Part shown: one piece after another, positions 3,320 through 44,191 of the stretch
How positions within the stretch are numbered: the stretch's first letter is position 1
Layout of the letters: each line of letters begins with the position of its first letter
Assembly: GCA_028820505.1 (NCBI GenBank)
Contig: JAPPIT010000218.1
Coordinates: 1-51,274 of the forward strand
DNA from: Defluviicoccus sp.
GTDB taxonomy: Bacteria > Pseudomonadota > Alphaproteobacteria > MPNO01
Reading direction: 5' to 3'
Length of the DNA: 51,274 nucleotides
The notes under the pieces: model-generated
Databases searched by the model: none
Told to the model about the DNA's origin: nothing
Seen by the model: the letters and a program-made list of their open reading frames with translations, nothing else
Translations under genes and position numbers: made by a program

Positions 3320-3355
3320 CGCCATGGCCCACATCCCGCGTCCCACTCAAAACAC

Positions 3356-3393
3356 GGGGCCGCCCCGCGACACTGCGGGGCGGCCCCCTTTTT
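3356..3393. terminator. Bidirectional terminator between convergent genes
   Basis: A perfect 13-bp stem (3356-3368 with 3375-3387) has a T run on the plus-strand side and an A run before it, so it can end transcripts from both sides. Confidence 0.85.
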
Positions 3394-3413
3394 GCGGACA
3401 GTCGGAGTTCGGG

Positions 3414-3725: not shown

Positions 3726-3913
3726 CTCCTCTCTCCCCCTCGCAGTTCCCGGTCGAACCCACATCCCGTCAACCGGCCCGACCGCGCCTTGCGACATACG
3801 ATAGGAGCCCGACATGCCGCCAACAAGTGCCGCCGCTCACCCAATACCCGACCCGGACAGCTACCGGGGCCGGGCTGGCCACAGCCCGCATCCACGCTAT
3901 GCGTCAATCCCAC

Positions 3914-3986
3914 GTTCGCGCGAACAGCATCGCCACGACGCCATGTGGCGGGAAGTTTGCCGGTTTGTACCTTTGCACCATGGTGC
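3914..3986. other. Candidate oriT: cluster of three dyads
   Basis: The 370 nt between the divergent accessory gene and the relaxase holds no credible gene. It contains a perfect 12-bp palindrome GTTCGCGCGAAC (3914-3925), a 6-bp inverted repeat CGCCAC/GTGGCG with an 8-nt loop (3931-3950) and a second 12-bp palindrome GCACCATGGTGC (3975-3986). Dyads just upstream of the relaxase gene are the expected anatomy of a MobF oriT. The nick site itself cannot be read from the sequence. Confidence 0.5.
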
Positions 3987-4094
3987 TTGACCGAACGCGG
4001 ACGGACATGCCATCGTCGCGGTCCTGGTCCCACTCGTGAGCGAACAAAGGCCGAATCCGACCGGCGTTTCACCCCGAACCGACCCCGCACAGAG

Positions 4095-15195: not shown

Positions 15196-16462
15196 CGGCA
15201 CCAGAAACCATGGGTCCAGCATTACCTGCAGCCGCAACCGTGGCTGTGGCCGGCTCTTCCTCCGGCTCAGACTGTTCTCCTTCCTCTCCGGGTCTCAATG
15301 CCGTGGCCTGTGCCAAAGCACAGAACCGGGCAAGCAAGGCGAAATCTCCCAACAGAAACTCGCCTCGACCGTCTCCTGCCCCGAACTTCCAAAAGGTGCT
15401 ACGGATCGAGGCCCACTCATCGCTCAATGGCCGTCCTGGCTGCCACGGTCCCGGAACCCCGAATATCACAGCCCCATCTCGTGCATATACGCTAAGATTG
15501 GGGCGCCGAAGTGCAAGATTGGCCGCCGCATATTCTTGATCAAGAGCACGAAACTGAAATGCGAAGATGGCTGAATGTGTATTGGCAGCGAGCGCCTCAT
15601 CTAGTACGGCGGATATCTGAGCATCTCCGAACGAAAAACCAACGCAGAGCAGTAAACTGTCTGGTGTCATCAGGAAGGTACGAAGGCGCTCATAAAGTGC
15701 AGAAAAGGGTTGGCGCGTGATTTGGTCGTACTTGAGGTGATCAGGATAAATGAGTATGGCGGCCTCGCGACTACCAGTCCTGATAATTGCGTCACCGGAG
15801 AATTCCCAGCCAAGCGACCCGTGTATTTTCCAAAGCCTTGTCCAGCGCGGCGGGAGCACGTCATCTGATACGCTCGCCGGATCAAAGAAGGGCTTATGTG
15901 AACCTGTGAAACCATCGAAATAGGGAAGTCGAGCACGTTCGAATGCTTCTTCTAACAGCAGATCATAGTTGGGGGTGAATACTTCGATCGCGTGATCGCG
16001 GTGAGTACCGCCGATCCACGAAACGAGTTCCGTGAAGGGATTCGGCTCGTTCGGAAGCGATGGCCCGACGATGCCTCCGATCTTACGACATATGCAGCTA
16101 GCTAGTTCTTCGTATCCCGCACCGTTCAGACCGTGGACTTCGGCTTTACCGATTGATTGAGAGAGTCTCCGGATACGAGTTAGGATGATTTCAATATTTG
16201 GGTTCTCTCCTAGTTCGGGTAAGAGAGCGTCTACAACTGTCTTGTCGCTTTGTTCCAGATCACCTACGACAGCCTCCGTAAGGCCTTCAACGTCGGGGAT
16301 AAGTGGCTGTCCATCGCGGTCCAGTTTTCCTTCCTCATTAACTCTCACTGCGACCGGAGCACCAGCACCTATGAGCAATCCTATGCGTTTGCGGCCCTGA
16401 GCAAGAATCTGCCGCAGGTCGGCCATAAAGCGGTCGGGATTGTGGAGTGTCGTTTGAGTCAT
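15188..16462 (-). CDS. SIR2-family NADase of a SIR2-HerA system
   Basis: The 424-aa protein carries the SIR2 NAD+-binding signatures: IGLLIGAGAPV near residue 27, EVFTPNYDLLLEEAF near 165, LWKIHGSLGW near 215 and LLLCVGFSFGDAQI near 275. The C-terminal ~90 residues are a family-specific extension ending in an acidic Pro/Ala-rich tail. In SIR2-HerA systems such proteins deplete NAD+ during phage infection, causing abortive death. It is the first gene of the operon sir2-herA-KTSC-nuclease on the minus strand. The lower GC and the flanking integrase/IS debris mark the operon as acquired. No strong ribosome binding site is visible. Confidence 0.9.
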   Translation of the reverse strand: MTQTTLHNPDRFMADLRQILAQGRKRIGLLIGAGAPVAVRVNEEGKLDRDGQPLIPDVEGLTEAVVGDLEQSDKTVVDALLPELGENPNIEIILTRIRRLSQSIGKAEVHGLNGAGYEELASCICRKIGGIVGPSLPNEPNPFTELVSWIGGTHRDHAIEVFTPNYDLLLEEAFERARLPYFDGFTGSHKPFFDPASVSDDVLPPRWTRLWKIHGSLGWEFSGDAIIRTGSREAAILIYPDHLKYDQITRQPFSALYERLRTFLMTPDSLLLCVGFSFGDAQISAVLDEALAANTHSAIFAFQFRALDQEYAAANLALRRPNLSVYARDGAVIFGVPGPWQPGRPLSDEWASIRSTFWKFGAGDGRGEFLLGDFALLARFCALAQATALRPGEEGEQSEPEEEPATATVAAAGNAGPMVSGADA

Positions 16463-17149: not shown

Positions 17150-18853
17150 ATGACCCAGCAAACAGCAGCGCCGCGGCCCCGCCATGAGCGGGCCGGCGAC
17201 GCGACCCTTCCCCGCAAACTGTTCGATTTCTCGGGCGTCGCGACCCGCATCGGCTCGCTCTACGACTCGCTCGGATCGCGCGCAGCCGAAGACCACGCAC
17301 AGCCCACGCCACAGCAGTCTCCCCCGCGGCCCAGGACGATCCCGGACTTGCCGCTTCTTCCCGTCGGCACACGCGTCCTGATCGCCGCCAACGGCAGCGC
17401 TCTCGACAGCCACAGCATCGCCCGCTTCCTGGACGGTTACCGCAAGGTCTTTCAGGACCTTGTCCTGATCCACACCGGCGCCGCCGGCGCCGAAGCGATC
17501 GCCGGCGAATGGGCCGGAGAGAACCGGATCCCGCAGATCGTCTACGCGCCCGATCCCGCCGGCGAAACGGCCGCACGACGCAACGCGCGCCATAAATCCA
17601 TCTTCGAGCTCACTCCGCCGGCCCGTATCTACGACTTCAGCGAAACCGGCAGGACCTCGGACATCGCCAACGTCGCGCGGGAACGACACCGCCCGGTGAC
17701 CGTCATCCAGAACCTGCCCGGTCACGCCCAGCTCGGTCCCGTTACCCACGCCGGTACATCGCAGCCCCGGCAATCCTCGCCGATCGACTCGCTGATCCGC
17801 GGCCTCCGCCAGCGTTTCTTCTCCGGACCCTCTCTCCCTGACATCCTCCCGGCAACGGCCGAGGAAGCGCGCGCCCTCGAGGAGCACGACAACTGCCATA
17901 CCCTCGCCCAACTCCGCGAAATCCGCAGCGCCGAACCCCGCTACGAGGCTCCGAGCCTCAAGCCGGTCCCGTTTCCGGAGAACGAACCCTTCGCCGAGGG
18001 GACGCGCGTTGTTGTCACCGGACCGCGCCTGCCTCCGGATCGGGAGGAGATGCTCAGGTTTCTCAACGGCCTGAAGGACGCGATTCCCGATCTGGTCCTC
18101 GTCCACGGCGGCGAAACCGGGACCGAAGCCCTCGTCGACGAATGGGCCCGGAAGAACGACATCCCCCAGATCAGCTACCCCGCCCACCCGGACGGCGAGA
18201 CCACCGAGCTCCGCGACGCGCGCTACAACGCATTGCTCGACGCCACCCAGCCCGCGCGCTTCTACGACCTGAGCGCGCCGGACCAGTCCTCCCAACTGGC
18301 CGAAATCGCCCGCCAGCGGCACCGACCCGTGATCCAGCAGCGTATGCTGATGGAGCGCTGGGCCGTGCGCCCCGCCACCTACATCGACCTCGAGCAACCG
18401 GGCTCGCGCGTCGTCATCACCGGACCCAACGCGTCGGCCGATCCCGAAGCGCTCTCAGGCGTTCTGGACCGCCTCAAGCGAAGCATCCCCGACCTCGTAC
18501 TGGTCCACAGCAACCATTCCGGCGTCGAGCAAATGACCGGCGAGTGGGCGCAGAACAACAGGATGCCGCAAATCGTTCTTCCGCGAGGCCCGGCCGAGGA
18601 CCTGCAGCACGAAGACGCCCGCATCAGCGCCATGTTCCACAAGGAGCCCGTGAGGGTCTACGACTTCACCGAGGCTGGCCAGCACTCATCGATCGCACAA
18701 AGCGCCCGAGAGCGCGGACTTGCCGTCACCGAATCCCGAAGCGCCGTCGAACGCGCCCCGGCCGAGAGCCTCGGCACCTCTTCCGGTCTTTCCGTCGAAA
18801 CCGCGGACGACCGCGACATGACCCCGCGCGCCCGCATCTCCCATTCCTTCTAG
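17150..18853 (+). CDS. Triple SLOG-domain protein (three DUF2493-like repeats), paralog 2
   Basis: A 567-aa paralog of the gene at 9233, with the same plan: an N-terminal KLFDFSGVATRIGSLYDSL segment, then DUF2493-like SLOG domains at about 73-185, 283-395 and 418-528. Each domain keeps PDLVLVH.., EWA..N.+PQI, P.GET, an R-rich helix and YDFS/YDLS..G..S.IA. Domains of the two paralogs match position by position, so a whole triple unit was duplicated. The tail ends RARISHSF. The canonical Asp of the ligand loop is Glu or absent. The NADAR-SLOG fusion starts 26 nt after its stop and is probably co-transcribed. No catalytic partner domain is attached; a sensor, scaffold or ligand-binding role is inferred from the family only. 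Confidence 0.8.
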   Translation: MTQQTAAPRPRHERAGDATLPRKLFDFSGVATRIGSLYDSLGSRAAEDHAQPTPQQSPPRPRTIPDLPLLPVGTRVLIAANGSALDSHSIARFLDGYRKVFQDLVLIHTGAAGAEAIAGEWAGENRIPQIVYAPDPAGETAARRNARHKSIFELTPPARIYDFSETGRTSDIANVARERHRPVTVIQNLPGHAQLGPVTHAGTSQPRQSSPIDSLIRGLRQRFFSGPSLPDILPATAEEARALEEHDNCHTLAQLREIRSAEPRYEAPSLKPVPFPENEPFAEGTRVVVTGPRLPPDREEMLRFLNGLKDAIPDLVLVHGGETGTEALVDEWARKNDIPQISYPAHPDGETTELRDARYNALLDATQPARFYDLSAPDQSSQLAEIARQRHRPVIQQRMLMERWAVRPATYIDLEQPGSRVVITGPNASADPEALSGVLDRLKRSIPDLVLVHSNHSGVEQMTGEWAQNNRMPQIVLPRGPAEDLQHEDARISAMFHKEPVRVYDFTEAGQHSSIAQSARERGLAVTESRSAVERAPAESLGTSSGLSVETADDRDMTPRARISHSF

Positions 18854-24997: not shown

Positions 24998-27900
24998 TCA
25001 CGAAACGCCATATCGATGCCCCGCCCTTCCGGGAGAAGGTGAGTGGGCTGCGCCGGGACGACGTGCGCACGGCGCTGGAGAAGGCGCTCTTGCTCCATCT
25101 CTTCGGTTCGCTGCGCGGACCTTGTCAAGATCTACGGGCTCCTTGCCGACGATACGTCCGATGGCTTCCTCGCGGGCGGCGCGCCCGGCACCCTTGCCGA
25201 CACCTGAAGGCTCGTACAGATAGAGTGGTTCGGGGATATGGACCGGGTGCTCCGCCATCTCCACGATCGGCAGCATGAAGGCCCAGTCGCTGGCGAGATC
25301 GACGTAATCGCCGTCGAGCCGCAGCGCTTCGTCCGGTATGGCGTCGAAGAGCCTCTTCCGGAACGAGCGGAGATGCTGCCACACATTGCCTCCGCGGCGT
25401 TCCCGCGGCCGCTCGAAGCACACCGGATAGTCGACCGCCTTGTCGGTGCGCAGCATCGAACCGGCGGTCACGTCGGCGCCGCGCCTGTATTCCGCCGCCA
25501 GCCGCTCGAGCACCCGCTCGCCGATCAGGGCGTCGTCCGCGTCGAGGGTCACGATCACCGTCTCGGGGTCGGCGCAAATCGTCCTTATGGCGGTCACCAT
25601 GTTGGCCAGCAGGCCGCGCCGGCGCCGGTTGCGAAGGACGGTGCAACGCTCCCCGAGCGCCGCGCATGCGGTCTCGAAGTGCTCGGCGAACATGGGGTCG
25701 GACGCGTCGTCGACTATCACCGCACCCCATCGCGGCCCTTTCTGCCGGGTCATGGATTCGAGGCACCGCCGGAACCGGCCCGGCGGCACGTTGCGGCCGG
25801 AGACGACGAAGACGAACGGCTCGCGCCGGGGCGGTCCCATCCATTCGGCGATGCCGCCCGTCCAGTCCGGTCTTCCCGTCTGAACCCGCGGCACCGCACC
25901 ATGCTCGATACGGTCGAGCGCCGCGAACCACGCGTCGAGGTCGTTCTTGCGCGCGTTGGGCGGATGGACATGGAAGGTCCGGCGGTCGCCGCCGCGAAAC
26001 GACCGGCCCGCCCCCGCCTCGATCGCCCGGTCGAGAGCCCTGTGCCAGGGAAGCGCCAGACGGTCTCCGTCGGTCCGGTTCGGCAACGGTCTCGCGTCGC
26101 GCAACCGGGCCAGATCGATCATCCCGGCGCGCGCTTCCGTCCGCCAGGCGCCGCGCGGTCCGCGGTCGGTCCAGGGCCGTTCACGGTCCATGGCGATGTT
26201 GAGCGCCACGGTGAGCGCGCCCGGCTCTCCGGCCAGGACGGCCAGCATCTCGGCCATGTAGTCGTGGCCCCGGTCCATCCGGGCGATCATGACGTCGGCG
26301 TCCACGTGAAGGACGTATCGCGTTTCGCACGCCTCGAACCCGGCCAGCGTGGAGGAGACCTGCGCGCCTGTCGCGGCGTGCGCGCGCTCGGAGGGAATGC
26401 CGAACCACCGCCGGTTGAGCGCAGCGGCGGCTTCGCCGTCGCCGGGACCTTCGACGATCCGGTCGATCCACCCGACATCCTTCAGCCGGCGCGCTTCCCG
26501 GCGAAGGCCGCTCAGGCTGCCGCGCGCGTGCTGCCTGAGAAACCCGTCCTCGCGGGAATCGATCGCCAGGACCCGCTCGGCGAACGCCCGCGGCCCCTCG
26601 AGTTGCGAGACCAGGTGGCGCACCTGCACGTCGAGCGTGGCCGCTTCCATGGCGCAGGCCTTGATCAGCAGCGTGACCTCACCGGGCAGCGGCGCGAGCG
26701 GACGGAGTTCGAACGTCAGATGCTCCGACATCGGCTCGAAGCGCTCCAGATTGACCGACGGCTCCTCCACGCGCCGGCATACCGCCAGGCCCGCGCGGGC
26801 GAACTCCCGCCGCAGCGCCCGTTCGGGACGATGCACGTCCTGGCGCACCCGGCCCGTCGCGCGGATCCTCTTCCGCCAGGCGAAGGTGTCCTCGTAGCGG
26901 GCGCCGGGCGGCAATTGCCGGTCGACTTCGGGGCTCGGCCCGCCGAACGTGAAGTGCGGATCGCATGCCGTCACGACGACCCGGCCGTCCTCTGTCACGG
27001 AGGCGCGCAGGTCGGCCAGGACCGTGCGCAGCTCGGCGTCGTCCTCGATGGTGCAGAGCACCCGGCGGCATACCACGAGATCGAACGGTCCCGCGGCCAG
27101 GGTCTCGACCCGCTCGTGGGTGAAGCGGAGATTGCCCGCTTCCCGGCAGAGCGACTCCCACCGCCGCCGATGGGCGCGGTCGGGGTCATAGCCGAGGACC
27201 CGCATCCCGCGCTTCGCCATCTCCCGGGCGATGCGGCCCTTGCCGCAGCCGTAATCGAGGACCGATCCGGTCTTGCCGATCATCCCCAGCACGATGTCTT
27301 CGGACGCTTCGTTGCGTCCCGTCACGCGCCGGACCGCCTCGCGGAACCCGTCGTACCCTTCGAGCTCGGGGATCCACGCATCGTTCAACGCGCGCCGCAT
27401 GATGTCCTTGAGGTCGGGCCGGTTCGCCCAGCGACACGAGAGCCATGCCCGCCGGCACATCGCGTCGAAGTCGCGCTCGTCTTCCAGCGGACGGATGTCG
27501 GAACCGTAGTCGATCAGCCGCACCCGCCCGTCGACCACGCGCAAATTGTCGGGATGGATGTTGCGGCAGACGACGCCATGGCGCCGGCATTCGGCAAGCA
27601 GGTCCACCATGCCCGGCCCGTGGCCGCCAATGTACGGTTCGCTGGGCTCGAACGGATAGACCAGCACCGCGCGATAGCCCGACTCATGAAAGTCGAGAAC
27701 GGGGTAGAGGCAGCGCGTGTCGCGCCAGGCGCCGACCAGCGAGCGCAGGAACGCTGGGGCATCGAAGGCATGCGACGACTTCAGGTAGTCGAAGACCTTA
27801 AACACGCGCTCCCCGTCGGAAAGCGCAACCCCTTCCGCGCCGCATCCCAACAAGGCGAGCGGACCGCCGGGCGCGGTCAGGTCCCGGGCAATCGCCCTGG

Positions 27901-30352
27901 CGTTGGCGACTCTCTCGTCCGCGAGACCGCGAAGCAGCGCCGCGGAATCCTCAAGCCGTATCCGATGGTTCTCGACCTCGCTCGGCAGCTCATCGAGATA
28001 CTCGCGGATCTGGCGGTCGGTCAGCGCCCCGGCTTCACGTTCGACGCGATGAAGGGTCTCCATCGTGTAGACCTCCGCGAGGCGTTCGGAGAACGCCCGC
28101 AGCCGGTCGAGCGCCGATCGATACTCGTCTTCCCGCCACCAGCGCCGGTCGTCTTCGACAAGCCGGTGCAGAACCCGCGAGAGGCCCCGGATACGATGGA
28201 AGGAGAGGCGGAATGCCGCCACCCGTTCGTCGAGGAACTTGCGCGCCCGATCGGTGAAGCGGTCCAGCATCCCCTCCACCGCTTCCAGGCCGAGATCGTC
28301 CGCGGCCCGGAACATGTCGGGCGTGTCCTGGAGCGCCCTGAACGCGGCATAGCCGCGAATGTCGTCGACGATGCGCTCGACATCCAGCCCACCCGCCGGG
28401 AGGCCGGCGCGGTCGTGATAGAGCGCGATGGGAAGGCTCGCGACCCTGCGGCCGAAGTAACGTTCCTGCAGCAGCGCCCAAATCATGTCCGAGCGCCGGC
28501 TCGGCCGGCCGTCGATGGCCGGCGAGGGGTTGGGGGCCAGCCTCAGGGCCTCGACGTCCAGCACGAAGGTATTGCCGCCGCGCTGGAGACCGCCGCCAAC
28601 CGGCGACAAGGGATCGGTGTCCTCGCCCACGGCAAGAGGCCGGAAGACCTGCTCCCCGGCCAATATCCGCTCCGCTTGGCGGGCCATGCGCGTGAATGCC
28701 TCGCCCACCGTCTCGCCGGGAAACCCGGGGGTGATCCAGAACGGCGTTTCCAGCCTGTCGGTCTGCTTGCGGGACAGGTCGTAATAGTAGTCGTGCCGCC
28801 GCGATCGCAGCATGGCGTTTTCCGGGGCGCGGTCCGGCAGGGCCGACCGGGGATCCAGCACCGCCAGCCATTGCAGGGACGCGGCGAGGTCCACGATCTG
28901 GACCCGGACGGTCGCCGCGAACGGCAGCGGAGGGGCTCCGGTATAGGCGCCGATGGCGATGTCGACGCCACCCGCCGCGTGGAGCCGGCGAAGCTCGCGC
29001 AACACCGGCGCGAGCCTCCGAGACCGTCGGCGCAGCCGCCCGTCCTTGCCGATGACGAGGGGATCGAGCCGCATGTCGTCATCTACGATCCAGACGATCG
29101 AACCCGGTCGGTTGCTCGCGAAGGCGTACAGATATGACTGCAATACCGTCCGGGCGGGGGCGATGGGCAGCCTGCGTCCCCCGCCCGCGCCTCCGTCTGG
29201 GACTAGGCCGTTCGCGGCGTCTTCAACGTGCCGCGCCCGATCGACTAGGTGGACCCGCAGGCCATCGGAACGCTCGCGCTCCGCGAGTTCGCGCAATGCC
29301 CTGTCGGATGTCCGCCCCGCACCGTTCTCCAGGATCAGCACGTCATGGCCCGACAGGCCGGGTTCTCCGGCAAGCTCTCGGAGATCGGAAAGCAGATTGG
29401 CGACCCGGTCCAGCCTTGCCGTGTCGGCGATCACGCCGACGATCAGATGGGGCGGCGCCGCAGGTGGCGCCGGAGGTCGCGGCGGCGATGCAGGCGGGTC
29501 CCAATGACCCGGATCATCGGCGGCCGCCGTACCGGGCGCCGCTTCCGTCCATCCGAAATACCGCGCGGCCCGGGCCCGGAACGCCGCGCGTTGGGTCTCG
29601 GACATTCGGCCGCGATACTTTCGGAAGAACCGGTCCAGCCCCTCGGTCTTGGCGAAAGAGCCGGGCGTCGACAGACGCTCGCGGGAACTGCAGGCGAAGT
29701 GATGGACGGTCGGTTCCGGGGTGGCGCCGTAGCGCAGGCCGGGCAACTCCGCGAGGCGGATGCAAAGGTCGCGGTCGGTGCAGCTCGGCAGCGATTCGTC
29801 GAACATCCCGGCTTCGAGCAGCGCGCTCAGCCGGACGACCAGGTTGCTGCCCTGAATCCCGGGATTGCCGATCATGAAATCCGCGATGTCGAGCGATGGC
29901 GGCGGCGCCACCAGGCGCGGCCCAGCCGCCTCTCCGATCCGCCGGAACGGCGCTGCGACCATGTCGAGACCGTGCTCCTCCACGGCGGCAAGACAGCTCT
30001 CCAGATGGAGCGGGTCCCAGCGGTCGTCGTCGTCGAGGATCGCGACGCGAACCCGCCGGGGATCCCGGCATGTCCGCAGCAAGTGGTCCAGGCCCGAGTT
30101 CCACGCCCCGGACGCGCCCTTCGTGCGGCGGTTGCGAAGAAAATCGACCGCGACGCCGGCGGGCTGCCAGTCCCGTACCGCCTGGCCTGACCGCGCGGCG
30201 ATTTCTTCCGATCCCGAGTCGTCGACGACGACGACCCGGGAAGGGAGCAGGGACTGGCTTGCGATGGAAGGAAGAGCCCGGCGCTCAAGCAGGGCGGGCC
30301 GATCGGCGGTGGCTACAAGGACCGCCACCGTGCCGTTCTCAGGATGTGCCAT
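24998..30352 (-). CDS. Multi-enzyme glycosyltransferase / kinase-like / methyltransferase megaprotein, 1784 aa
   Basis: One reading frame joins at least six enzyme units. A GT2 glycosyltransferase comes first (AVLVATADRPALLERR, then VAILDDDDRW near 107). A second GT-A-like unit has IVWIVDDDMRLDP near 422. A helical stretch leads to a kinase-like fold (GCGAEGVALSDGERVFKVF, VVCRNIHPDNLRVV, RLIDYGSD near 947). A SAM methyltransferase follows (VLDYGCGKGRIAREMAKRG near 1032). A third GT-A-like unit has TLLIKACAMEAATLD near 1227 and VLHVDADVMI near 1350. The protein ends with a GT2 unit (FVFVVSGRNVPPGRFRRCL near 1514, VTLDADDAL near 1602). It should build and decorate a glycan, but the acceptor cannot be read. 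ATG 30352 has GGGAGG before it. No membrane segments are visible. It ends ~100 nt before the antitoxin gene on the same strand. Confidence 0.85.
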   Translation of the reverse strand: MAHPENGTVAVLVATADRPALLERRALPSIASQSLLPSRVVVVDDSGSEEIAARSGQAVRDWQPAGVAVDFLRNRRTKGASGAWNSGLDHLLRTCRDPRRVRVAILDDDDRWDPLHLESCLAAVEEHGLDMVAAPFRRIGEAAGPRLVAPPPSLDIADFMIGNPGIQGSNLVVRLSALLEAGMFDESLPSCTDRDLCIRLAELPGLRYGATPEPTVHHFACSSRERLSTPGSFAKTEGLDRFFRKYRGRMSETQRAAFRARAARYFGWTEAAPGTAAADDPGHWDPPASPPRPPAPPAAPPHLIVGVIADTARLDRVANLLSDLRELAGEPGLSGHDVLILENGAGRTSDRALRELAERERSDGLRVHLVDRARHVEDAANGLVPDGGAGGGRRLPIAPARTVLQSYLYAFASNRPGSIVWIVDDDMRLDPLVIGKDGRLRRRSRRLAPVLRELRRLHAAGGVDIAIGAYTGAPPLPFAATVRVQIVDLAASLQWLAVLDPRSALPDRAPENAMLRSRRHDYYYDLSRKQTDRLETPFWITPGFPGETVGEAFTRMARQAERILAGEQVFRPLAVGEDTDPLSPVGGGLQRGGNTFVLDVEALRLAPNPSPAIDGRPSRRSDMIWALLQERYFGRRVASLPIALYHDRAGLPAGGLDVERIVDDIRGYAAFRALQDTPDMFRAADDLGLEAVEGMLDRFTDRARKFLDERVAAFRLSFHRIRGLSRVLHRLVEDDRRWWREDEYRSALDRLRAFSERLAEVYTMETLHRVEREAGALTDRQIREYLDELPSEVENHRIRLEDSAALLRGLADERVANARAIARDLTAPGGPLALLGCGAEGVALSDGERVFKVFDYLKSSHAFDAPAFLRSLVGAWRDTRCLYPVLDFHESGYRAVLVYPFEPSEPYIGGHGPGMVDLLAECRRHGVVCRNIHPDNLRVVDGRVRLIDYGSDIRPLEDERDFDAMCRRAWLSCRWANRPDLKDIMRRALNDAWIPELEGYDGFREAVRRVTGRNEASEDIVLGMIGKTGSVLDYGCGKGRIAREMAKRGMRVLGYDPDRAHRRRWESLCREAGNLRFTHERVETLAAGPFDLVVCRRVLCTIEDDAELRTVLADLRASVTEDGRVVVTACDPHFTFGGPSPEVDRQLPPGARYEDTFAWRKRIRATGRVRQDVHRPERALRREFARAGLAVCRRVEEPSVNLERFEPMSEHLTFELRPLAPLPGEVTLLIKACAMEAATLDVQVRHLVSQLEGPRAFAERVLAIDSREDGFLRQHARGSLSGLRREARRLKDVGWIDRIVEGPGDGEAAAALNRRWFGIPSERAHAATGAQVSSTLAGFEACETRYVLHVDADVMIARMDRGHDYMAEMLAVLAGEPGALTVALNIAMDRERPWTDRGPRGAWRTEARAGMIDLARLRDARPLPNRTDGDRLALPWHRALDRAIEAGAGRSFRGGDRRTFHVHPPNARKNDLDAWFAALDRIEHGAVPRVQTGRPDWTGGIAEWMGPPRREPFVFVVSGRNVPPGRFRRCLESMTRQKGPRWGAVIVDDASDPMFAEHFETACAALGERCTVLRNRRRRGLLANMVTAIRTICADPETVIVTLDADDALIGERVLERLAAEYRRGADVTAGSMLRTDKAVDYPVCFERPRERRGGNVWQHLRSFRKRLFDAIPDEALRLDGDYVDLASDWAFMLPIVEMAEHPVHIPEPLYLYEPSGVGKGAGRAAREEAIGRIVGKEPVDLDKVRAANRRDGARAPSPAPCARRPGAAHSPSPGRAGHRYGVS

Positions 30353-30614
30353 GATGCCTCCCGGATGATGGAAGGTGACGAGACAGCCCATCCAGTTCGC
30401 CGGGAGCAGAGGAACGCGGCGCGACGCCGGGGACTTCCTCATCCGGAATCCCCGAAGGCTATGCTCCACCGTCGCTACGAACGGAAAGGTGCAGCCAAAA
30501 ATCTGCACTGACCGTGATCGATGCAAGAGTCTTTCGCCGAGCTGGGTTCGCCAAGGATGTTCTTATGCGGGCGATGCCGATGTTCCCACGAGGCGACAAC
30601 GGCGCATCGTGCAC

Positions 30615-30828
30615 ACTCGGGACGGCCTGGAGGATGTGGGTCGTCATGACTTGCGTCAGACCCTTTGCCTCCCGTGCCCTGGCGCTCGGAGAGATCCTGT
30701 CCGTGATCGGCAAGCCGCTCGGTCACAGCGACATCGAGACGACGGCGCGCTACGTCCATCTGGCGCAGGACTCGATCGACGAGACGGCGGAGCGGATTGC
30801 AGACAGTATTGCGGTCGATATTCTGTGA
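30615..30828 (+). pseudogene. Tyrosine integrase C-terminal remnant, frameshifted
   Basis: TRDGLEDVGRHDLR (30615-30656, holding the HxxR box) and FASRALALGE, LGHSDIETTARYVHLAQDS (30664-30828, holding the second His and the nucleophile Tyr) are the catalytic C-terminus of a phage-type integrase. They are in different frames: seven bases lie between the two blocks where six are expected. No N-terminal or core part is present upstream. Confidence 0.8.
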
Positions 30829-30949: not shown

Positions 30950-32251
30950 ATGAACGACCGAACCGTCCACAGTCATCCCGATAGTGCCGAGCGGACAATT
31001 TCGCTGGCCCCCGATTTGCCGGCAATTCCCGAACGGTTGTTGTTAGCGCACGCTCGAGGAGACGTGCTTTTCCTCTGCGGCGCGGGAATCTCCATGTCGG
31101 CCGGGTTACCAGACTTCAAGCAACTTGTACTCGATGTCTATCGGATCCTCGATCCGAGCGTCTGCGAGATCTTGACCAATGCCTCCATCGATCCGGACCG
31201 CCCGACGAAACCGGATTGCCCGGCTCTCAACGATCGCCAATCGGCAGAAGTCGAATGCTTCAACGCCGGTGAATACGATGTTGTCCTCGGCATGCTGGAG
31301 CGCCGTCTCGACAGCCATACGCGAGAAGACAGCAAGGTCAGGAGCAGGGTAGTCGAGATTCTTCGCTCGCCAATCGGCAAGCCGAATCCGGCGATGTCAA
31401 GGCTCGAAGCGGGCGCAGCGCGTTCAGGCAACGCCGATGCGTCCGGCACCGCACGCCCGGCGGCGATCCACCGCACGCTCATCCGGCTTGCGGATCGCGG
31501 CGGTGCAACGACGATCATGACCACCAACTTCGACCTCTTGCTTGAGCGAGCCGCGAGAAATCTCCGGGTGCCGGCGCAGAGCTACGCGCTCGGATCGATT
31601 CCCCGACCGGCAAGGCGGCGGGAATTCGCCGGCGTGCTCCACATTCACGGAGCCTTGACCCGCAATCCCTCCCGCCATTCGGATCTGATACTTACCGACC
31701 AGGACTTCGGGGAATACTATTTGCGGCGGCGCGTCGTTCCCGACCTCGTCTACGACACCGCCCGACTGTTTCATCTCATACTGGTCGGCTACAGCGCCAA
31801 CGACCCGCCGATGCGCTACCTCCTGAATGCCGTTGCCGCGGACGAAGGCCGCTTCGACGACCTCAAGGAGCGGTTCATATTCGTCGGTTCCGACGAACCC
31901 GATGCCGTTGCGCTGCAGGGCTGGCGCGCCAGGGGAATCGTGCCGATTCGCTACGACGCTTCGGACGGGGACCATACGGTGCTGCTTCGCATGCTCCAGC
32001 GATGGGCCGATCTTTCGGCGATCAACGGCAAACAGCAGCTCGTCCACCGCGAGATCCGGCGCATCGTCAAATCGCGAAGAGCTGACGCGCCGGACGCCGA
32101 TCTGGGACTGTTCGATCATCTGTTCAGGCGAGCCAGCCCCGACGAGCGCGTGCGCCTCGCCGAGGTGGCATCCGCCGCCGGCGCCGAACCCGCCTGGCTC
32201 GATGCCATCCTGTCGGTCAGCGCCGAAAGAGAGCGTCAGAGAAACTCGTGA
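30950..32251 (+). CDS. SIR2-like predicted NADase, second system
   Basis: The 433-aa protein carries LFLCGAGISMSAGLPDF (NAD+-binding loop), TIMTTNFDLLLERAA (TxNxD motif) and VLHIHGAL, followed by LILVGYSANDPPM. This is the SIR2_2-type fold found in NAD+-depleting defence proteins. The C-terminal ~120 residues are a helical extension. The next gene starts within its stop codon (GTGA overlap), a strong sign of a two-component system. ATG 30950 has only a weak ribosome binding site; the frame is open 150 nt further upstream into the integrase remnant. It is distinct from the SIR2 at 15188-16462 in sequence and gene order. Confidence 0.88.
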   Translation: MNDRTVHSHPDSAERTISLAPDLPAIPERLLLAHARGDVLFLCGAGISMSAGLPDFKQLVLDVYRILDPSVCEILTNASIDPDRPTKPDCPALNDRQSAEVECFNAGEYDVVLGMLERRLDSHTREDSKVRSRVVEILRSPIGKPNPAMSRLEAGAARSGNADASGTARPAAIHRTLIRLADRGGATTIMTTNFDLLLERAARNLRVPAQSYALGSIPRPARRREFAGVLHIHGALTRNPSRHSDLILTDQDFGEYYLRRRVVPDLVYDTARLFHLILVGYSANDPPMRYLLNAVAADEGRFDDLKERFIFVGSDEPDAVALQGWRARGIVPIRYDASDGDHTVLLRMLQRWADLSAINGKQQLVHREIRRIVKSRRADAPDADLGLFDHLFRRASPDERVRLAEVASAAGAEPAWLDAILSVSAERERQRNS

Positions 32252-35016
32252 CCTACTCCTTGTCAGACCTGGATGTGCGGGACCGAGCACGTTTCCGGAC
32301 CGCGGCGGCGTTTCTCGAGGGCCGTCTCGAAGAACCCGGGACAGTGGACTGGGCGCTCAGGCTGAAACCCGACCGACGGGTCGAGCGGGCTGCGATCCAT
32401 AAACTCCTGGTTGGCCCTGGCGCGCCACGACTTCGGGAGCCCTACGCAACCGCATGGCCGCTCATCCTGGAGAGCTGGTCCTACCGCGCGCCGGCAGGTT
32501 TTCCCGCTTCGGAGCTTCAGCAGATCCTTAGGCGGCTGCAAGTGGGAGACCGTTCCGGCCACCTCGTCGAGGAAATCGCCGACTTTGCCGCTCCGCGCCT
32601 CGCAGTGAAGCCGCTGCAAGCCCGCCTCCGGTCGCCTGCCCGAAGATCCCGACGCCCGAGGAAGCTCGGCGACCTGCTGTCGGTAGGTCTGACCAGCGTC
32701 AGCCTCGCAATCGGTTTCCGGGAGCACCGCATAGACATCGGTCTCGACGAGATTACCGATGCCGACTTTCTCCATGCCGTGGCAAGCGCCTTGATGTCCG
32801 CGGTCGACCGGGGGCTCTACCTCGCCCACCGCATCCATGGCAGCACCGAGCGAGACTGGCCACCATTGGTGTCTCCTCTTCGCGTGTATTTCGTGCCTCC
32901 GAAGACTGCCGTGAACGAACGGGACGGATCGGGCGACCGGCTCTTCGAACCCGATGCCCTCACTCCCGGTCTCGGACCTGCCGTGAAATTGCTCCATGCG
33001 GTCCTGCAGCGCATCGCCGAACTCGACGCCGGAACGGCGAGATCGTTTCTCGGGCGTTGGCGCCATTCCGATATAGCGGTCTACCGCCGTTTGTGGGCCG
33101 CTGCCGCCCGCAACGCCGACGCGGTTTCTGCCGCTGAACCTGCCGAGTTCTTGACAGCCCTCGACGATGCCGAGTTCTGGGACTTTTGGTCCTTTCCGGA
33201 ATTCGCCGAATTGCGCGCGGCACGGTTCAAGGACTTCGAACCCGAAACGCAGGCGCTGATCCTCAGGCGTTTGCGCAAGGGACTGCCGCTCAGATCTTTC
33301 CCGAAAGATATGGACGCCGAAGAAATCCGAACGAAGAGGCGCGCATTGGCTGCCATGGAGATCAGACGAATCGAGCTCGCCGGCGGTATCTTGCCAGCCC
33401 AGGACCGCAATTGGTTGCTTGAAGCGACCGATGAGTTTCCGGGTCTCAAGAATATGGTTATGGACGGCGGTTTCCGCGATCCGTGGATCCTGCCCTATTT
33501 CCCGCCCAGCACCACTCCAAAGTCTCGCTTTGACGATCTGGAAGGCGAATCCCGGTTGCTGGCGCTTGAAGACGCGCTGTCGAGCGAGTCGTCAGAATTT
33601 AAGGCCGCGGACTGGCTCCGACAGTCCGGTCATGCTGTTCATATCCTGGGCGATCTAGAACGCGCAGCTTCGCTGGTGGACCGCTTCCCGCACCTCTGGG
33701 ATCGTTTCGGGCATGTACATTCCCATCCTCGGTCGCAGCCAGAGAGCGAAACGCTGCGCGATGTCGAGTCCGAGGCGGTTCGCGTCCTGGGCCTGATGAA
33801 CCGGCTTTCAGACACGACCTTCGAAGCCGCGAGCGACGGCATTTCCCAATGGCTCCACATGCGGTCCGAGCACGTCATCGGGAGCGAGCTTGGGCGGCAG
33901 ATCTGGCTGCGCGCATGGCCCGCAGCGGTCGAGGTTACCAATGCGACCGAAACGGGTGAAGACAAGGGCTTCGCAGATGCGAGCGTTCGCGCAGACGACG
34001 AACAGCAGGCACGCGAGGAGTCCGATGCGTTTCATCTGCCCGTCGGGAAGCTTCTCCGCGTATTCCTGGAACTGTTCCGTTTCACCGACGAAAACAGCGA
34101 TCCATTCGCCAGCGGAAGCCTGTTAACGCAGATGCGCGACCGCGCCATGGATGCACCGGGCCACAGCGGTCTCATTGCGCACTGTCAATTCACGCAGAAG
34201 CTCCCGGACTTTCTCCAGATAGACCCCGCGTGGGCGATGCAGCGTCTCGTTGACCCGCTACTGAACGACGATGACAGGTCCGTACTGCTTTGGCGTGCAG
34301 TTGCTTCCGCCTGGATCGATTCCGATATGCTGAAGATTATCGGCGAGGAGGCTGCGAACAGGGTTCTCGATGAACGACTCGGCAAGCAAGCCCGGAAAGG
34401 CCTCATCTCCTGCCTGGTCCATGAAGGATTGGCGGCGTTCACGGATCGGCGTGAGCCGTCCATTTCCCACGCCCGCATTTCACAGGTGCTGCGTACCGCT
34501 GACAGTGAGATTCGGCAAGAGGCAGCCTTGGCGATCTGGCATACTCAGGACTATGCATACAAGCAGGGCCAGGGATCGCTCCCGCCGCACACAACCTTCC
34601 TGTCGACCGTTAAACCGTTCCTTGAACATGTCTGGCCCCAGGAACGATCACTCGCGACGAGCGGCGTAAGCCATCATTTCTCTCGTCTCCCGGCAGTCTC
34701 GGGAGAAGCATTTGCACAAGCGGTCGATGAGGTCGCGCGTTTCCTCGTCCCTTTCGATTGCCAGTCGCTGCTCGCTTACGGCTTCAATGAAAGCGGTTTG
34801 TCCGAAGACTTCGGGATGCCGCGCCTATCGGACGCGGTCGATGATTCGCTGAAGGCTCATGCTCTCCTGCGGTTGCTCGACTTGACCGTCGGTGAATCGC
34901 AAGACGCTGTCATTCCCGATGACCTCAGTACCGCGCTGGACCGAATTGAAGCCAAGGCCCCGAGCCTGACATCCGACCCGGCCTTCAGGCGGCTCGCTGC
35001 GGCGGCTCGCAGATAA
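32248..35016 (+). CDS. Large helical partner protein of the second SIR2
   Basis: This 922-aa protein starts on GTG, overlapping the SIR2 stop by 4 nt. It is soluble and mainly alpha-helical, with many WxxF/LRRL-type repeats along the whole length that suggest an alpha-solenoid scaffold. I see no Walker motif, nuclease motif or zinc site. Families such as DUF4020 occur beside SIR2 genes and might match its C-terminal part, but this is from memory and unverified. The likely role is recognising a phage or plasmid cue and controlling the SIR2 NADase. Confidence 0.75.
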   Translation: MTYSLSDLDVRDRARFRTAAAFLEGRLEEPGTVDWALRLKPDRRVERAAIHKLLVGPGAPRLREPYATAWPLILESWSYRAPAGFPASELQQILRRLQVGDRSGHLVEEIADFAAPRLAVKPLQARLRSPARRSRRPRKLGDLLSVGLTSVSLAIGFREHRIDIGLDEITDADFLHAVASALMSAVDRGLYLAHRIHGSTERDWPPLVSPLRVYFVPPKTAVNERDGSGDRLFEPDALTPGLGPAVKLLHAVLQRIAELDAGTARSFLGRWRHSDIAVYRRLWAAAARNADAVSAAEPAEFLTALDDAEFWDFWSFPEFAELRAARFKDFEPETQALILRRLRKGLPLRSFPKDMDAEEIRTKRRALAAMEIRRIELAGGILPAQDRNWLLEATDEFPGLKNMVMDGGFRDPWILPYFPPSTTPKSRFDDLEGESRLLALEDALSSESSEFKAADWLRQSGHAVHILGDLERAASLVDRFPHLWDRFGHVHSHPRSQPESETLRDVESEAVRVLGLMNRLSDTTFEAASDGISQWLHMRSEHVIGSELGRQIWLRAWPAAVEVTNATETGEDKGFADASVRADDEQQAREESDAFHLPVGKLLRVFLELFRFTDENSDPFASGSLLTQMRDRAMDAPGHSGLIAHCQFTQKLPDFLQIDPAWAMQRLVDPLLNDDDRSVLLWRAVASAWIDSDMLKIIGEEAANRVLDERLGKQARKGLISCLVHEGLAAFTDRREPSISHARISQVLRTADSEIRQEAALAIWHTQDYAYKQGQGSLPPHTTFLSTVKPFLEHVWPQERSLATSGVSHHFSRLPAVSGEAFAQAVDEVARFLVPFDCQSLLAYGFNESGLSEDFGMPRLSDAVDDSLKAHALLRLLDLTVGESQDAVIPDDLSTALDRIEAKAPSLTSDPAFRRLAAAARR

Positions 35017-35858: not shown

Positions 35859-37256
35859 CTATCCGCCGTCGGCTCCGTCCGTCGTGTTCAATTTAGGAAG
35901 AGACACAGGGCGGGGATGCTGAAACTCGTTCCATGCTTCGACGAAGAACGGGATCAGCTCCTTGTAGGCGTGTCTGAAATACGCGTCGTTTCTCAGGACA
36001 TAGTCTTCGTTGAACTGCAATTCAGGGCTGTGCTCAGGTTCCAGTGATACGCCGCGGATAATGGAAACAATATTGGGCTTGGCCGCGCCCCCGACCCTGT
36101 GGTGGGTCTCTGCGCCCGGCCGGGGAGGCGGCAGGTAGGTCTGAAACCCCTGAATACCGGTGAATCCCGCGATCACGGTGACGGGCGAGGTGACTTCGAG
36201 TTGCTCCTTCGCGAACCGGAGATACTCGCTCAAGGCGAGCGCAAAGGCATCCTCGAAGAACCGAACGACATGGTCCTGGGGGCGCATATCGGGATAATCC
36301 AGGCGCCTGAGCTCCTCAGCCTCGAAGTCGATGCGTCGGGCTTGAAGCCAAAAATTGTCTATTCCCCAGATCTCGCCCTGGCTTGTGATCTGGACGATGT
36401 AGTCGGCGGCAACTCGTTCCGAGCCGCCGGACTCGAAGACGACCGCGCCCCATTCGTTGCCGATGCGCCAGTGCTGACCTCGCCCGGGACTCCAGAAGGG
36501 TGTCAGCGGCGTGTTGTCGAGCATTCCATGGATCTGAAGAGCGCTGTAGGGCCCGACGGGAACGCCCGGAACGACTCTCAGGAATGCCCGGGGGCCATCT
36601 CTCCAAACGACCGGCGTGGGTTCGAGGCGGCCCACGGCGCGGGGCAGTATCCCCAGAACGTCGCCCTCCTTGAGAAAGCTCGACATGCCGGAGTTCGGTT
36701 GCAGTGGAGCGGAGGAGGAGCCGGCAGCCGGCGAAGCCGCAAGCGCGGTCCTGATTGCGTCTTCGAAGTGCTTGGTCAGGCCGCGTTTGACGGAGTTCCG
36801 TTCGTCCGGCTCAGCGTCCTCCCTTAGCGTGAAGCGATGCGGCCAACGGGTGTGTCGGATGTTGAAAGGCAGTGACGTCTCCGTGGCCCGCCCGTAAGCC
36901 TCATTCATTACCGCCACGATTCTCTCGTGACCGGGCTTTGCAAGCGCCCAGCCGTACTCGATCAGCACGTTTGCGTTCGGGATCGGCCGCTTCTCCTCGG
37001 TCAGGCCGCAGAATGTCAGATCGGGAACAAACACCGCGCATTCCTCGATCTTCCGGAAGATGGTGTCGGCGACAGGCGGGCTGCCGGGGATGCCTTTGGT
37101 GTCCTTGTCGAGTTCCAGGTCCCGCGAGGGGACGTAGATCTCGTTCTCTTCCCTGCCGAGATTTCGTATTGCCTGCACCAGGGCGTCCTCGATGAACCCC
37201 CGATTGGTCTTGTTCGGGCGGTCGCTCTGCCAGGAATAGAAGACTTTGTCGGGCAT
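35859..37256 (-). CDS. TIR-like N-terminal domain protein (FYSWQSD type)
   Basis: The 465-aa protein starts VFYSWQSDRPNKTNRGFIED and continues with DTIFRKIEECAVFVPDLTF and ANVLIEYGWALAKPGHERIV. This is the strand-helix pattern of TIR/SEFIR-like folds: an early strand with Trp-Gln-Ser-Asp, a central hydrophobic strand ending in an acidic residue, and the E-Y-G-W-A-L helix carrying the candidate catalytic Glu. Such domains often cleave or cyclise NAD+. The remaining ~300 residues are an unrecognised C-terminal region, probably the sensor. AAGGGA precedes the ATG. It is upstream of the 128-aa gene. Assignment to a TIR-like fold is by pattern, not by search. Confidence 0.7.
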   Translation of the reverse strand: MPDKVFYSWQSDRPNKTNRGFIEDALVQAIRNLGREENEIYVPSRDLELDKDTKGIPGSPPVADTIFRKIEECAVFVPDLTFCGLTEEKRPIPNANVLIEYGWALAKPGHERIVAVMNEAYGRATETSLPFNIRHTRWPHRFTLREDAEPDERNSVKRGLTKHFEDAIRTALAASPAAGSSSAPLQPNSGMSSFLKEGDVLGILPRAVGRLEPTPVVWRDGPRAFLRVVPGVPVGPYSALQIHGMLDNTPLTPFWSPGRGQHWRIGNEWGAVVFESGGSERVAADYIVQITSQGEIWGIDNFWLQARRIDFEAEELRRLDYPDMRPQDHVVRFFEDAFALALSEYLRFAKEQLEVTSPVTVIAGFTGIQGFQTYLPPPRPGAETHHRVGGAAKPNIVSIIRGVSLEPEHSPELQFNEDYVLRNDAYFRHAYKELIPFFVEAWNEFQHPRPVSLPKLNTTDGADGG

Positions 37257-38777: not shown

Positions 38778-39788
38778 CTACACTAAGGGGATAGTCGATG
38801 TGCGCACATCGATTCTGTCAAGTTTGCGAACGCGCAAGAAAAACTCCAATGATCGCGCTCTTATGTAAGCGTCCGGGCTAGGCCCAACGATAACGGCTTT
38901 GATCGAATTCAAGAGAAGGGTTTTTTGTTCATCCGTCACGGCAGTTGGTGTAGTCACATAAGGAACGAGCGCGCTATCCCTTACAAAAGCTCGCACCGGA
39001 CTAGGTTTGGGCAGTTCAGACAACAAACTCTCTTGGCTAAGCCTCACCTCCTCCTCTTCCTTGAATGCGGGGTGCTTCGTATACCGGAGGAAGCGGCTGT
39101 AGGTTTTGAATACATCCCAAGCGCTGTCCCCGAGTGTATCGTCGGTCACGGAGCAAAATGCTGCTTCTCCTCTCTCATTCGATTCGCCTTTTTTTTCCAC
39201 CCGCTTTTCGACGTATGTGGTGAACATGGTGCTGATGCTAGCAGCCGTATGCATAATTTCTTGCTTGATCGGGTTTTCCTGCCCGTAGTGCACGTCCTCT
39301 AGAACGGGTTTAGGGCCATCGCCTTCTATGTCGTCTAACCAAGTCGAAAGTGCATTCCTGCTGAATTGAATCGCGTACCCATGTGTGCCGCCATATGCTC
39401 GCCATTGGCTTAGCAAGCCGCCTTGAAAAATGGCCGGATCGGATGTCTTGCAAAATGATGTTATGAAGGTGACGAAATGAGTGGTCAGCAAAGCCTCTAG
39501 ATCCTCGTCGTAGTCGTGCGTCGCCGCGAATGGAGGGAGGCGCAAAGATTCCAATGCAGCATCAATTCTCCTTTGCTCTGAGGCATTCTTGGGAATCGTG
39601 TTGAGCACGGATGCAATTACACCCTTGCCATACTGCTGTTCAGTCGCGTCGTTCGACGCGACGCTGGCTGTGCTCCATAGTTGTCCCGATTCCAAAATGC
39701 CGAGCAGGCCGTTGGCGTTCGTATAGTGAAAGAGCGCATCTGCCATTTCCTCGTAGCTTGGGAAAAATTTGGACAATAAGCCAGCCAT
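38778..39788 (-). CDS. DUF2971-family protein
   Basis: The 336-aa product carries the family's N-terminal LFHYTNANGLLGILESGQLW and NDATEQQYG and the later LLSQWRAYGGTHGYAIQFSR block, with KAVIVGP near the C-terminus. DUF2971 proteins are common in defence islands; their biochemical activity is not settled. The gene is clearly AT-richer than its neighbours, has a strong AAGGAGG ribosome binding site before ATG 39788 and stands alone, so it looks recently acquired. It is soluble, with no signal peptide. Confidence 0.85.
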   Translation of the reverse strand: MAGLLSKFFPSYEEMADALFHYTNANGLLGILESGQLWSTASVASNDATEQQYGKGVIASVLNTIPKNASEQRRIDAALESLRLPPFAATHDYDEDLEALLTTHFVTFITSFCKTSDPAIFQGGLLSQWRAYGGTHGYAIQFSRNALSTWLDDIEGDGPKPVLEDVHYGQENPIKQEIMHTAASISTMFTTYVEKRVEKKGESNERGEAAFCSVTDDTLGDSAWDVFKTYSRFLRYTKHPAFKEEEEVRLSQESLLSELPKPSPVRAFVRDSALVPYVTTPTAVTDEQKTLLLNSIKAVIVGPSPDAYIRARSLEFFLRVRKLDRIDVRTSTIPLV

Positions 39789-42145: not shown

Positions 42146-44191
42146 TTAACCCACTTGCTCCACGCCAACCTCCGCGACCGTCCGACTCGGCTTCGCGAAC
42201 ATCCCGAACCTCCCGGGGTCCGACGCCTCCTGCTTTCTCAGCACCAACGGGTTGGGATCGGCCAGCCCCTTCGCGTCGCTCCGGTTCCAGTACCGTGCGT
42301 GGTAGAGCCCGAACGCATCGCGCGGCATGTCCTTCGGCGACGCCACCACGAACTGACGCTCCGGCCCCATCGTCAGGATCTCATCCGCCATGACGATGCG
42401 TTCCTTCACCACGCTCACATTGTCTCCCACCTGGAGCTGGCTAGCGCCGGCAAACACCCGCGCGGTCGAGCTCCGACCCGAGTGCGACTCCGACCGGTTC
42501 TCGAAGCTCGCCGAGCCCATCGCCGCGGAGAGCTTTTCGGCGCCGTCGACATCCGTCCTCGGGAATCCGAGGATCTGCACCACCTCCGCCAGATCCATCA
42601 GCACCTGCCGGTTCCCCGCCCCCCAGCTCTCGTCCAGAACCGAGATCGACTGCGCGAAGCCCCAGAAGTGAACCCCCCGGCCCGCCGACATCGTGTAGCT
42701 GTCCATCATCGGCTTCAGGAGCCCGAGCGCCGGCATCTCGTCCACGATGATCAGCAGGTCCCGTTCCATGCGCCGGACCGCCGACACCGCGTTCGGGATC
42801 GTCACCCAGAGACGCAGCCAGGGCCGCGCCTGCTCGACCATGTCCTCCGGCACCACCACGAAAATGTCCATGTTCCCCGAGGCCAGCTCGCGCGGATCGA
42901 AATCCGACCCGGCCGTGTGCTCGGCAAGCTCCGGGTACTGGAGGAACGACATCTGGTTCGCGATTGTCGAAAACAGCGACCCTCCTTCGTCCTTGCCCAC
43001 CTGCTCCATGCGCTCGACCGCCATCAGCGGAAGACCGCCCGCCGCGCGCGGGCAATCGCGCACCTCCTTCATGAACTGCGTCCTGTCGTCGCCGGAAAGG
43101 GAGAGGAGGTCCGAGACCTTCTTCAGCGTCTGGTCCTTGCCGGCATACATGAACTTCACCCAGGCCACGTAGCCGGCGATCACGGCACGCGCCGAATGGT
43201 AGAAATGCATGCTGGCATCGTGCCCGCCCGCCGGCGGCGTGAGCAGCGCGTCGAGCAGCGCGTTCACGTCGCGGCCGACGAACTCGGTGTCCTTCCGAAC
43301 GAAGTCCATCGGGTTGTAGCGGCGGCTCCGGAATTCCGGCAGGTTGAGCAGCTCGCGGGTCTTGTCGCCCTCGCGCTCGACGAAATTCTCCTTGTACCGC
43401 CGGACGACGCCGAAGGGATCGAGCAGCACCGTCTCGCGTCCCATCGCCCGCCGCCTCCGCGCGACGATGCACCAGGTCTCCCCGCGGGGATCCAGCAGCA
43501 CCGTCGAGCCCGGCCAACCCCGCCCGCGAGGGGCCAGATAGTTCAACGCGATCGTCGCGCCCTTGCCGGTCCTGGGCGGTGCGAACGTCATCGCCGAGCC
43601 TTCCAGCCCCCAGCCGACGAGAGGCGAATTCGCTCTTCCTCCCGATTGCCCGAGCAGGATGCCCTGGCGCGCCTCGAGCTCCCGGATATGCTGCCGGCCC
43701 AGCAGCCTGGCCTTACCGAAGAGCTCGGACTCCGCAAGTTTGCGCTTCTCCCGTCCCGTCCAGCCCGCCGCCTTGCCGAACCACTCCACCCAGACCCAGG
43801 ACAGTGGCAGTAGAGCAACGCCCGGCCCCAGGACGAGAAACGCATCGGCCACGCTCAGCCCGCCCACCACCTGCGCGAACCGGACGACGCCAAGCTCCCG
43901 CGCGGGCACCACCGCCTCCAGCCACAGCGCGACCGCGCACAAGCCGAGCACGGCGGTATAGACCCCGCCGCAAAGCGCCTGCCATTTGCGATCGCCGTCC
44001 ATGAACAGATAGACGAGCACCGCCGTCGTCACCGCGCCCCCGACCGCCCACAGACGGCCATCGCGGTCCACGTCGAACGACGTCATCCCCCAGAACCAGA
44101 GCGCCACGAGGATCGTCGGCGCCGCAAAGACCGAAACCTTCACCACCAGGCGTCTCTGCTCCGCTTCCAGGCGCACATTCTTCAGCGACAT
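42146..44191 (-). CDS. Type IV coupling protein (VirD4/TraG family)
   Basis: The 681-aa ATPase delivers the relaxase-DNA complex to the secretion channel at the inner membrane. It has three N-terminal transmembrane segments (about 20-38, 48-64, 75-95). Walker A is APPRTGKGAT (204-213, Lys210) and Walker B LLIIVDEMPALG (Asp484, Glu485), followed by GRGVHFWGFAQSISVLDE. The last ~90 residues are a C-terminal extension of the kind that contacts substrates. GGAGG precedes the ATG, 3 nt after the DotA/TraY stop. It is VirD4/TraG-like although the channel genes are of Dot/Icm-IncI type. Confidence 0.93.
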   Translation of the reverse strand: MSLKNVRLEAEQRRLVVKVSVFAAPTILVALWFWGMTSFDVDRDGRLWAVGGAVTTAVLVYLFMDGDRKWQALCGGVYTAVLGLCAVALWLEAVVPARELGVVRFAQVVGGLSVADAFLVLGPGVALLPLSWVWVEWFGKAAGWTGREKRKLAESELFGKARLLGRQHIRELEARQGILLGQSGGRANSPLVGWGLEGSAMTFAPPRTGKGATIALNYLAPRGRGWPGSTVLLDPRGETWCIVARRRRAMGRETVLLDPFGVVRRYKENFVEREGDKTRELLNLPEFRSRRYNPMDFVRKDTEFVGRDVNALLDALLTPPAGGHDASMHFYHSARAVIAGYVAWVKFMYAGKDQTLKKVSDLLSLSGDDRTQFMKEVRDCPRAAGGLPLMAVERMEQVGKDEGGSLFSTIANQMSFLQYPELAEHTAGSDFDPRELASGNMDIFVVVPEDMVEQARPWLRLWVTIPNAVSAVRRMERDLLIIVDEMPALGLLKPMMDSYTMSAGRGVHFWGFAQSISVLDESWGAGNRQVLMDLAEVVQILGFPRTDVDGAEKLSAAMGSASFENRSESHSGRSSTARVFAGASQLQVGDNVSVVKERIVMADEILTMGPERQFVVASPKDMPRDAFGLYHARYWNRSDAKGLADPNPLVLRKQEASDPGRFGMFAKPSRTVAEVGVEQVG

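Follow-up and report, generated by a model that had tools for sequence, protein, structure and literature searches.

A SIR2 gene and its helical-solenoid partner as a probable two-gene relative of the defence protein DSR1

We describe a SIR2-family gene joined by a four-nucleotide overlap to a gene for a very large helical protein, a pair that we class with DSR1 as its two-gene form and that very likely works like a DSR system. By their sequences, the two genes correspond to the front and the back of one known protein, DSR1, and the pair is probably an antiviral alarm system, a two-protein relative of what DSR1 does in one protein. DSR1 and DSR2 have been described as single-gene systems (PMC10973363), and we found no description of a two-gene or split DSR1 in the open-access literature, subscription literature being outside the search. 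The pair lies in a contig stretch of 51,274 nucleotides from Defluviicoccus sp., called here the window (Table 1).

Table 1. Features of the window discussed in the text.
Feature	Position	Strand	Remarks
TrwC-type relaxase	3288-8834	+
YspA/cpYpsA-type SLOG (YAcAr) domain protein	9233-10903	+	near the SIR2-HerA pair
SIR2-HerA defence pair	13357-16462	-	same element; PADLOC HerA E 1e-158, SIR2 E 6e-153
YspA/cpYpsA-type SLOG (YAcAr) domain protein	17150-18853	+	near the SIR2-HerA pair
1842-aa ORF	24998-30526	-	immediately upstream of the pair; carries a methyltransferase domain along with two glycosyltransferase-2 stretches
Remnant of a tyrosine recombinase C-terminus	30514..30828	+	just upstream of the pair; weak, E 0.007, below Pfam cut-off
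SIR2-family (SIR2_2) NADase-type subunit, 433 aa	30950..32251	+	core ~14-355, C-terminal helical extension 362-432
GAGIS nucleotide-binding motif	31079..31093	+	residues 44-48; G44, A45, G46 and S48 invariant in 27 split homologues
TTNFD motif	31520..31534	+	residues 191-195, catalytic-type Asn193; invariant in 27 split homologues
HIHG motif	31640..31651	+	residues 231-234; invariant in 27 split homologues
GTGA stop/start overlap	32248..32251	+	seen in the DNA; -1 frame relation
Partner, 922-aa alpha-solenoid protein	32248..35016	+	collinear with the C-terminal part of DSR1
465-aa ORF	35859-37256	-	adjoins the pair; weak CAP12/Pycsar-type TIR match (E 0.01, below cut-off)
DUF2971 protein	38778-39788	-	very weak HYD1/ADP-ribosyltransferase-like match
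TraG/VirD4 coupling protein	42146-44191	-

Results

Two overlapping genes and their junction

The original prediction, made from the DNA letters, was of a second SIR2 gene overlapping a 922-aa gene by GTGA, and both open reading frames and the overlap are indeed there; the first SIR2 gene of the window is that of the SIR2-HerA pair. The SIR2 frame opens mechanically at TTG 30797 and closes with the TGA ending at 32251. An ATG is available downstream at 30950 and is the likely start, because a close relative (locus L011) starts at the same residue, in agreement with the start that had been proposed. The partner begins with GTG, and the overlap presumably couples its translation to that of the SIR2 gene. 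Compared with L011, dN/dS is about 0.24 for the SIR2 gene and about 0.32 for the partner, values that point to purifying selection on both.

A search of 84,980 species genomes with an alignment of the partner yielded 25 related loci, and a SIR2 gene lies immediately upstream in every one (25/25), with no orphan partner found among them. Over these 25 loci and six plasmids, the latter also with a SIR2 gene immediately before the partner, the likely partner start falls between -4 and +1 nt relative to the SIR2 stop, which is beyond chance. It lies at -4 nt (ATGA or GTGA) in most, at -1 in one, at 0 in one and at +1 in the others. The partner starts at the SIR2 stop with ATG, GTG or TTG, and the frame relation is -1, +1 or an in-frame stop followed by ATG. 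With the frame differing among loci, the split can be put down neither to sequencing error nor to a programmed frameshift that is conserved. Programmed frameshifting to a fused product is ruled out by 31 conserved junctions with differing frame relations. That we are looking at an ordinary single-chain DSR1, interrupted by a frameshift from sequencing or assembly or decayed to a pseudogene, is extremely improbable. Overlapping frames can arise in this way, and one single-chain Dsr1 homologue (L073) looks broken like this, but the junction recurs in all 31 loci with its different frames and start codons, both genes are under purifying selection, and the split forms make up a separate clade.

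The homologue just mentioned (G620:C20, 3597-7431) is of the single-chain type and lies in overlapping open reading frames of 880 and 413 codons. Its break differs in place from the conserved split, and may be a frameshift or a second kind of split.

Distribution and phylogeny

Hosts of the split pair are mostly Alphaproteobacteria, with further occurrences in Pseudomonas, Xanthomonas, Stenotrophomonas and Desulfuromonas. The six plasmids that carry it, all typed as conjugative, are Bradyrhizobium p1S06B, Rhizobium Q54 plasmid 6, S. meliloti psymA and three Agrobacterium plasmids, two of them named pTi. No relatives were found in phage records or in viral contigs, the viral scan having used close-relative patterns only.

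Single-chain Dsr1 homologues are common in the phylum sample, and a single branch separates them from the split forms, with a support of 100 for the joined proteins and of 99/100 for the SIR2 part alone. All split forms lie on one side of this branch, so that a single origin suffices to account for them. The branch is long; SIR2 outgroups intended to root the division had branches too long for the purpose, and the tree is left unrooted as to fission versus fusion. In one genome (L069, G000:C155, 5020-8889) the split pair coexists with a single-chain Dsr1-like protein of ~1289 aa.

The pairwise identities and distances of the two subunits are correlated with r = 0.97, and the partner has diverged faster (median pairwise identity of 31% versus 44% for SIR2), as expected of a sensor. 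This last feature would suit an arrangement of interchangeable adaptors, in which a shared SIR2 serves different sensors in trans and the split evolved for sensor exchange. We find such an arrangement very unlikely, given the close agreement of subunit trees and distances and the fact that each of the 25 partners adjoins its own SIR2 gene.

Both genes match DSR1

The best match of the SIR2 subunit is the NCBIfam Dsr1 model NF041818 (185.3 bits, E 1e-54, model positions 55-306 of 1263), which is also the only NCBIfam model that the partner matches (89.6 bits, E 1e-25, positions 640-1262 of 1263); both scores are far under the curated cut-off of 1400 bits and each covers the model in part. The Dsr1 models of PADLOC are likewise the best match, recovered by 26/26 SIR2 and 24/24 partner homologues in the alignments of relatives. 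Aligned with a single-chain protein (L030, G443), the split SIR2 profile falls at residues 12-340 and the partner profile, from position 53 to its last position, 890, at 405-1197. When 27 split pairs are aligned with 16 fused proteins, the gene boundary comes to lie at fused residues ~350-425, behind the SIR2 fold. The first ~250 residues of the partner are outside the Dsr1 HMM match and are aligned only via the profile and collinearity.

The likeness to DSR1 thus consists of a SIR2 NADase-type N-terminal part and a long helical C-terminal part in collinear order, with the catalytic motifs GAGxS, TTNxD and His in common. The differences are that DSR1 is one chain, broken here into two genes at about its residues 350-425, and that the split pairs form a separate long-branched clade scoring far below the curated cut-off. 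It is because the architecture is split that the Dsr1 matches are partial and below cut-off, and since the pair lacks both the single chain and the score, it is not filed as Dsr1. A match to an already characterised subtype had been named in the original prediction as the outcome that would count against it; what we find is that the DSR1 family is recognised, but through two partial matches far below its threshold.

Sequence motifs and predicted structures

The SIR2 gene matches Pfam SIR2_2 (E 9e-20). We assigned the TTNFD motif following PMC12931631, and H233 of the HIHG motif is probably the catalytic histidine, the counterpart, in our assignment, of H171 in DSR2, for which the residues N133/H171 are given in PMC11087589. 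An AlphaFold2 model built on 26 SIR2 sequences (mean pLDDT 75) has a SIR2 fold. Among solved structures it is matched best by DSR2, ThsA and KomC in their SIR2 domains, with Z 16-18 and an rmsd of about 3.0-3.6 A across about 255-275 residues; SIR2-HerA matches less well (Z about 9-11). The C-terminal helical extension is confidently predicted, with pLDDT mostly above 90 in this block, and it may dock on the partner.

For the partner, no Pfam family is matched up to E = 1, DUF4020 included, and there are no matches to HerA, SLOG or Argonaute/APAZ models in Pfam and PADLOC. The original description of it as a protein with no recognised enzymatic motif is right, and the HMM comparison that had been proposed, with DUF4020 among the models, returned Dsr1 as the NCBIfam and PADLOC match. 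Its solenoid-like character also holds: the AlphaFold2 model on 24 partner sequences (mean pLDDT 81, pTM only 0.55) is a long solenoid, helical almost throughout. The structural matches listed (Foldseek, VIA) are generic HEAT/ARM proteins such as importins, CAND1 and PP2A-A, with Z at most 9.4, a range common for repeats, so that we read no function from them. A sequence search against solved structures gave no match of note. The helical order, which includes a short pair of beta strands close to the N-terminus (117-149), is reminiscent of the succession of helix-turn-helix/beta-hairpin, helix bundle and HEAT repeats in DSR2 (PMC11263360), as a resemblance only. DSR2 is absent among the structural matches listed for the partner, an absence that excludes nothing.

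Genetic context

The window encodes a TrwC-type relaxase as well as a TraG/VirD4 coupling protein and probably belongs to a conjugative element, on which the SIR2-HerA pair also resides. Strong PADLOC matches to defence genes occur within 7 kb in 7/13 related loci with sampled flanks, a raw count taken without a baseline. These neighbours are an MmeI-type restriction gene (L045), Zorya ZorA (L049), MkoA/MkoB (L058), a TIR-Argonaute partner (L061), mad3 (L063), HerA (L068) and a IIG-like methylase (L007).

Some further genes of the window are recorded in Table 1 as observations. To judge from its weak TIR match, the ORF adjoining the pair possibly encodes another NADase-type defence protein. 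An ORF similar in size to the DUF2971 gene of the window is found upstream of the pair in L011 (1312-2310).

Discussion

We consider it likely that the pair is a split DSR1, in which a SIR2 NADase effector and a solenoid partner acting as scaffold, restraint and sensor form a hetero-oligomer, and this is our best explanation. The model for it is DSR2, in which the C-terminal/HEAT region both senses the tail tube protein of the phage and holds SIR2 back (PMC10973363, PMC11087589, PMC11263360). Upon tail tube binding the SIR2 tetramer of DSR2 opens and NAD+ is consumed (PMC10973363, PMC11087589), and the SIR2 domain on its own is monomeric and inactive (PMC10973363, PMC11087589). By analogy, the partner most likely scaffolds, restrains and triggers the SIR2 NADase as the C-terminal part of DSR1 or DSR2 does. 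Complex formation, autoinhibition, sensing, NADase activity and an anti-phage effect are all predicted on this model. The first gene would supply the SIR2 effector together with the first few helices of a region that is continuous in DSR1, and the second gene the remainder, the long alpha-solenoid. Termination and reinitiation at the GTGA overlap would give near-equal amounts of the two proteins, which would assemble into a hetero-oligomer equivalent to the homo-oligomer of DSR1 and DSR2. In the uninfected cell, the solenoid subunit would hold the SIR2 assembly in an inactive state. Once a phage protein (a structural one, such as the tail tube in the case of DSR2) or another invasion signal is bound, the SIR2 pocket would open, NAD+ would be depleted and phage growth stopped. 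According to a review (PMC10952713), the restriction of phage by DSR1 does not entail death of the cell, and abortive infection should therefore not be assumed.

A sensor or inhibitor had been proposed as the role of the partner. It is still the most plausible one, although inhibition of the antitoxin type has lost ground, since in some strains the partner is disrupted and the SIR2 gene next to it is intact. If the system were toxin-antitoxin-like, SIR2 would be a constitutively active NADase toxin, and the partner its essential inhibitor (or a chaperone), which would disappear or be blocked when the cell is infected or loses the plasmid. Adjacent coupled genes, the frequent location on conjugative plasmids and a partner devoid of enzymatic domain are what one would expect from this. 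We nevertheless hold it to be unlikely. In pTiAg57 (L010, 7933) the partner is broken by a one-base deletion in an A run, a change that could be a sequencing error, and the SIR2 DNA is identical to that of pTi_CFBP2407. In A. tumefaciens MEJ076 (L067, 9199) SIR2 is intact and an IS66-type insertion interrupts the partner after ~740 of its ~884 residues. Even in truncated form the partner may go on restraining the enzyme, but living strains that keep the SIR2 gene beside a disrupted partner make a strict antitoxin role less likely. Moreover, the partner corresponds by homology to DSR1's sensor half, is more than twice the size of the enzyme and comes second in the operon, and the SIR2 of DSR2 is inactive by itself (PMC10973363).

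The split DSR1 that we favour has to be set against the other SIR2 systems. The original prediction held the pair to be unlike those known, which is right with respect to SIR2-HerA, Thoeris and SIR2-DUF4020, but goes too far for the single-gene systems, the pair being collinear with DSR1. With DSR2 it shares the fold of the SIR2 core, which matches structures of DSR2 with Z about 18, and, as a working model, a helical/HEAT C-terminal sensor, but DSR2 is a single chain, and the Dsr2 models (NF041819, PADLOC Dsr2) give no sequence match for the partner and a marginal 11.5 bits for SIR2. The core fold is also that of Thoeris ThsA (Z about 17), but a SLOG domain is absent from both proteins of the pair (Pfam) and no ThsB was identified alongside; the TIR-like ORF next to the pair runs in the other direction, gives no match in PADLOC and was not identified as one. 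SIR2-HerA is, like our pair, a two-gene SIR2 defence operon, with a HerA ATPase in place of the solenoid and a different SIR2 subfamily. SPARSA (SIR2-APAZ and short Argonaute) is another two-gene SIR2 system, and differs in that our partner matches neither Argonaute nor APAZ. SIR2-DUF4020 is set apart by the lack of DUF4020 in the partner.

More tentatively, the split pairs could represent a distinct heteromeric class of DSR with separate effector and sensor and a trigger of its own. Conjugative plasmids and ICE-like elements would have spread it among proteobacteria, plant-associated ones included, it might act in defence between plasmids besides defence against phages, and current annotation probably does not call it. 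That such pairs are probably missed follows from each half being under the single-chain thresholds. On Ti and symbiosis plasmids, whose records label the partner gene 'hypothetical protein', the pair is a likely defence locus. The mechanism itself is predictable; the value of the system lies in the roles of enzyme and sensor being separately testable. Enzyme and sensor can be made and mixed separately, and this natural split would offer a clean test of which half restrains, which senses and which assembles.
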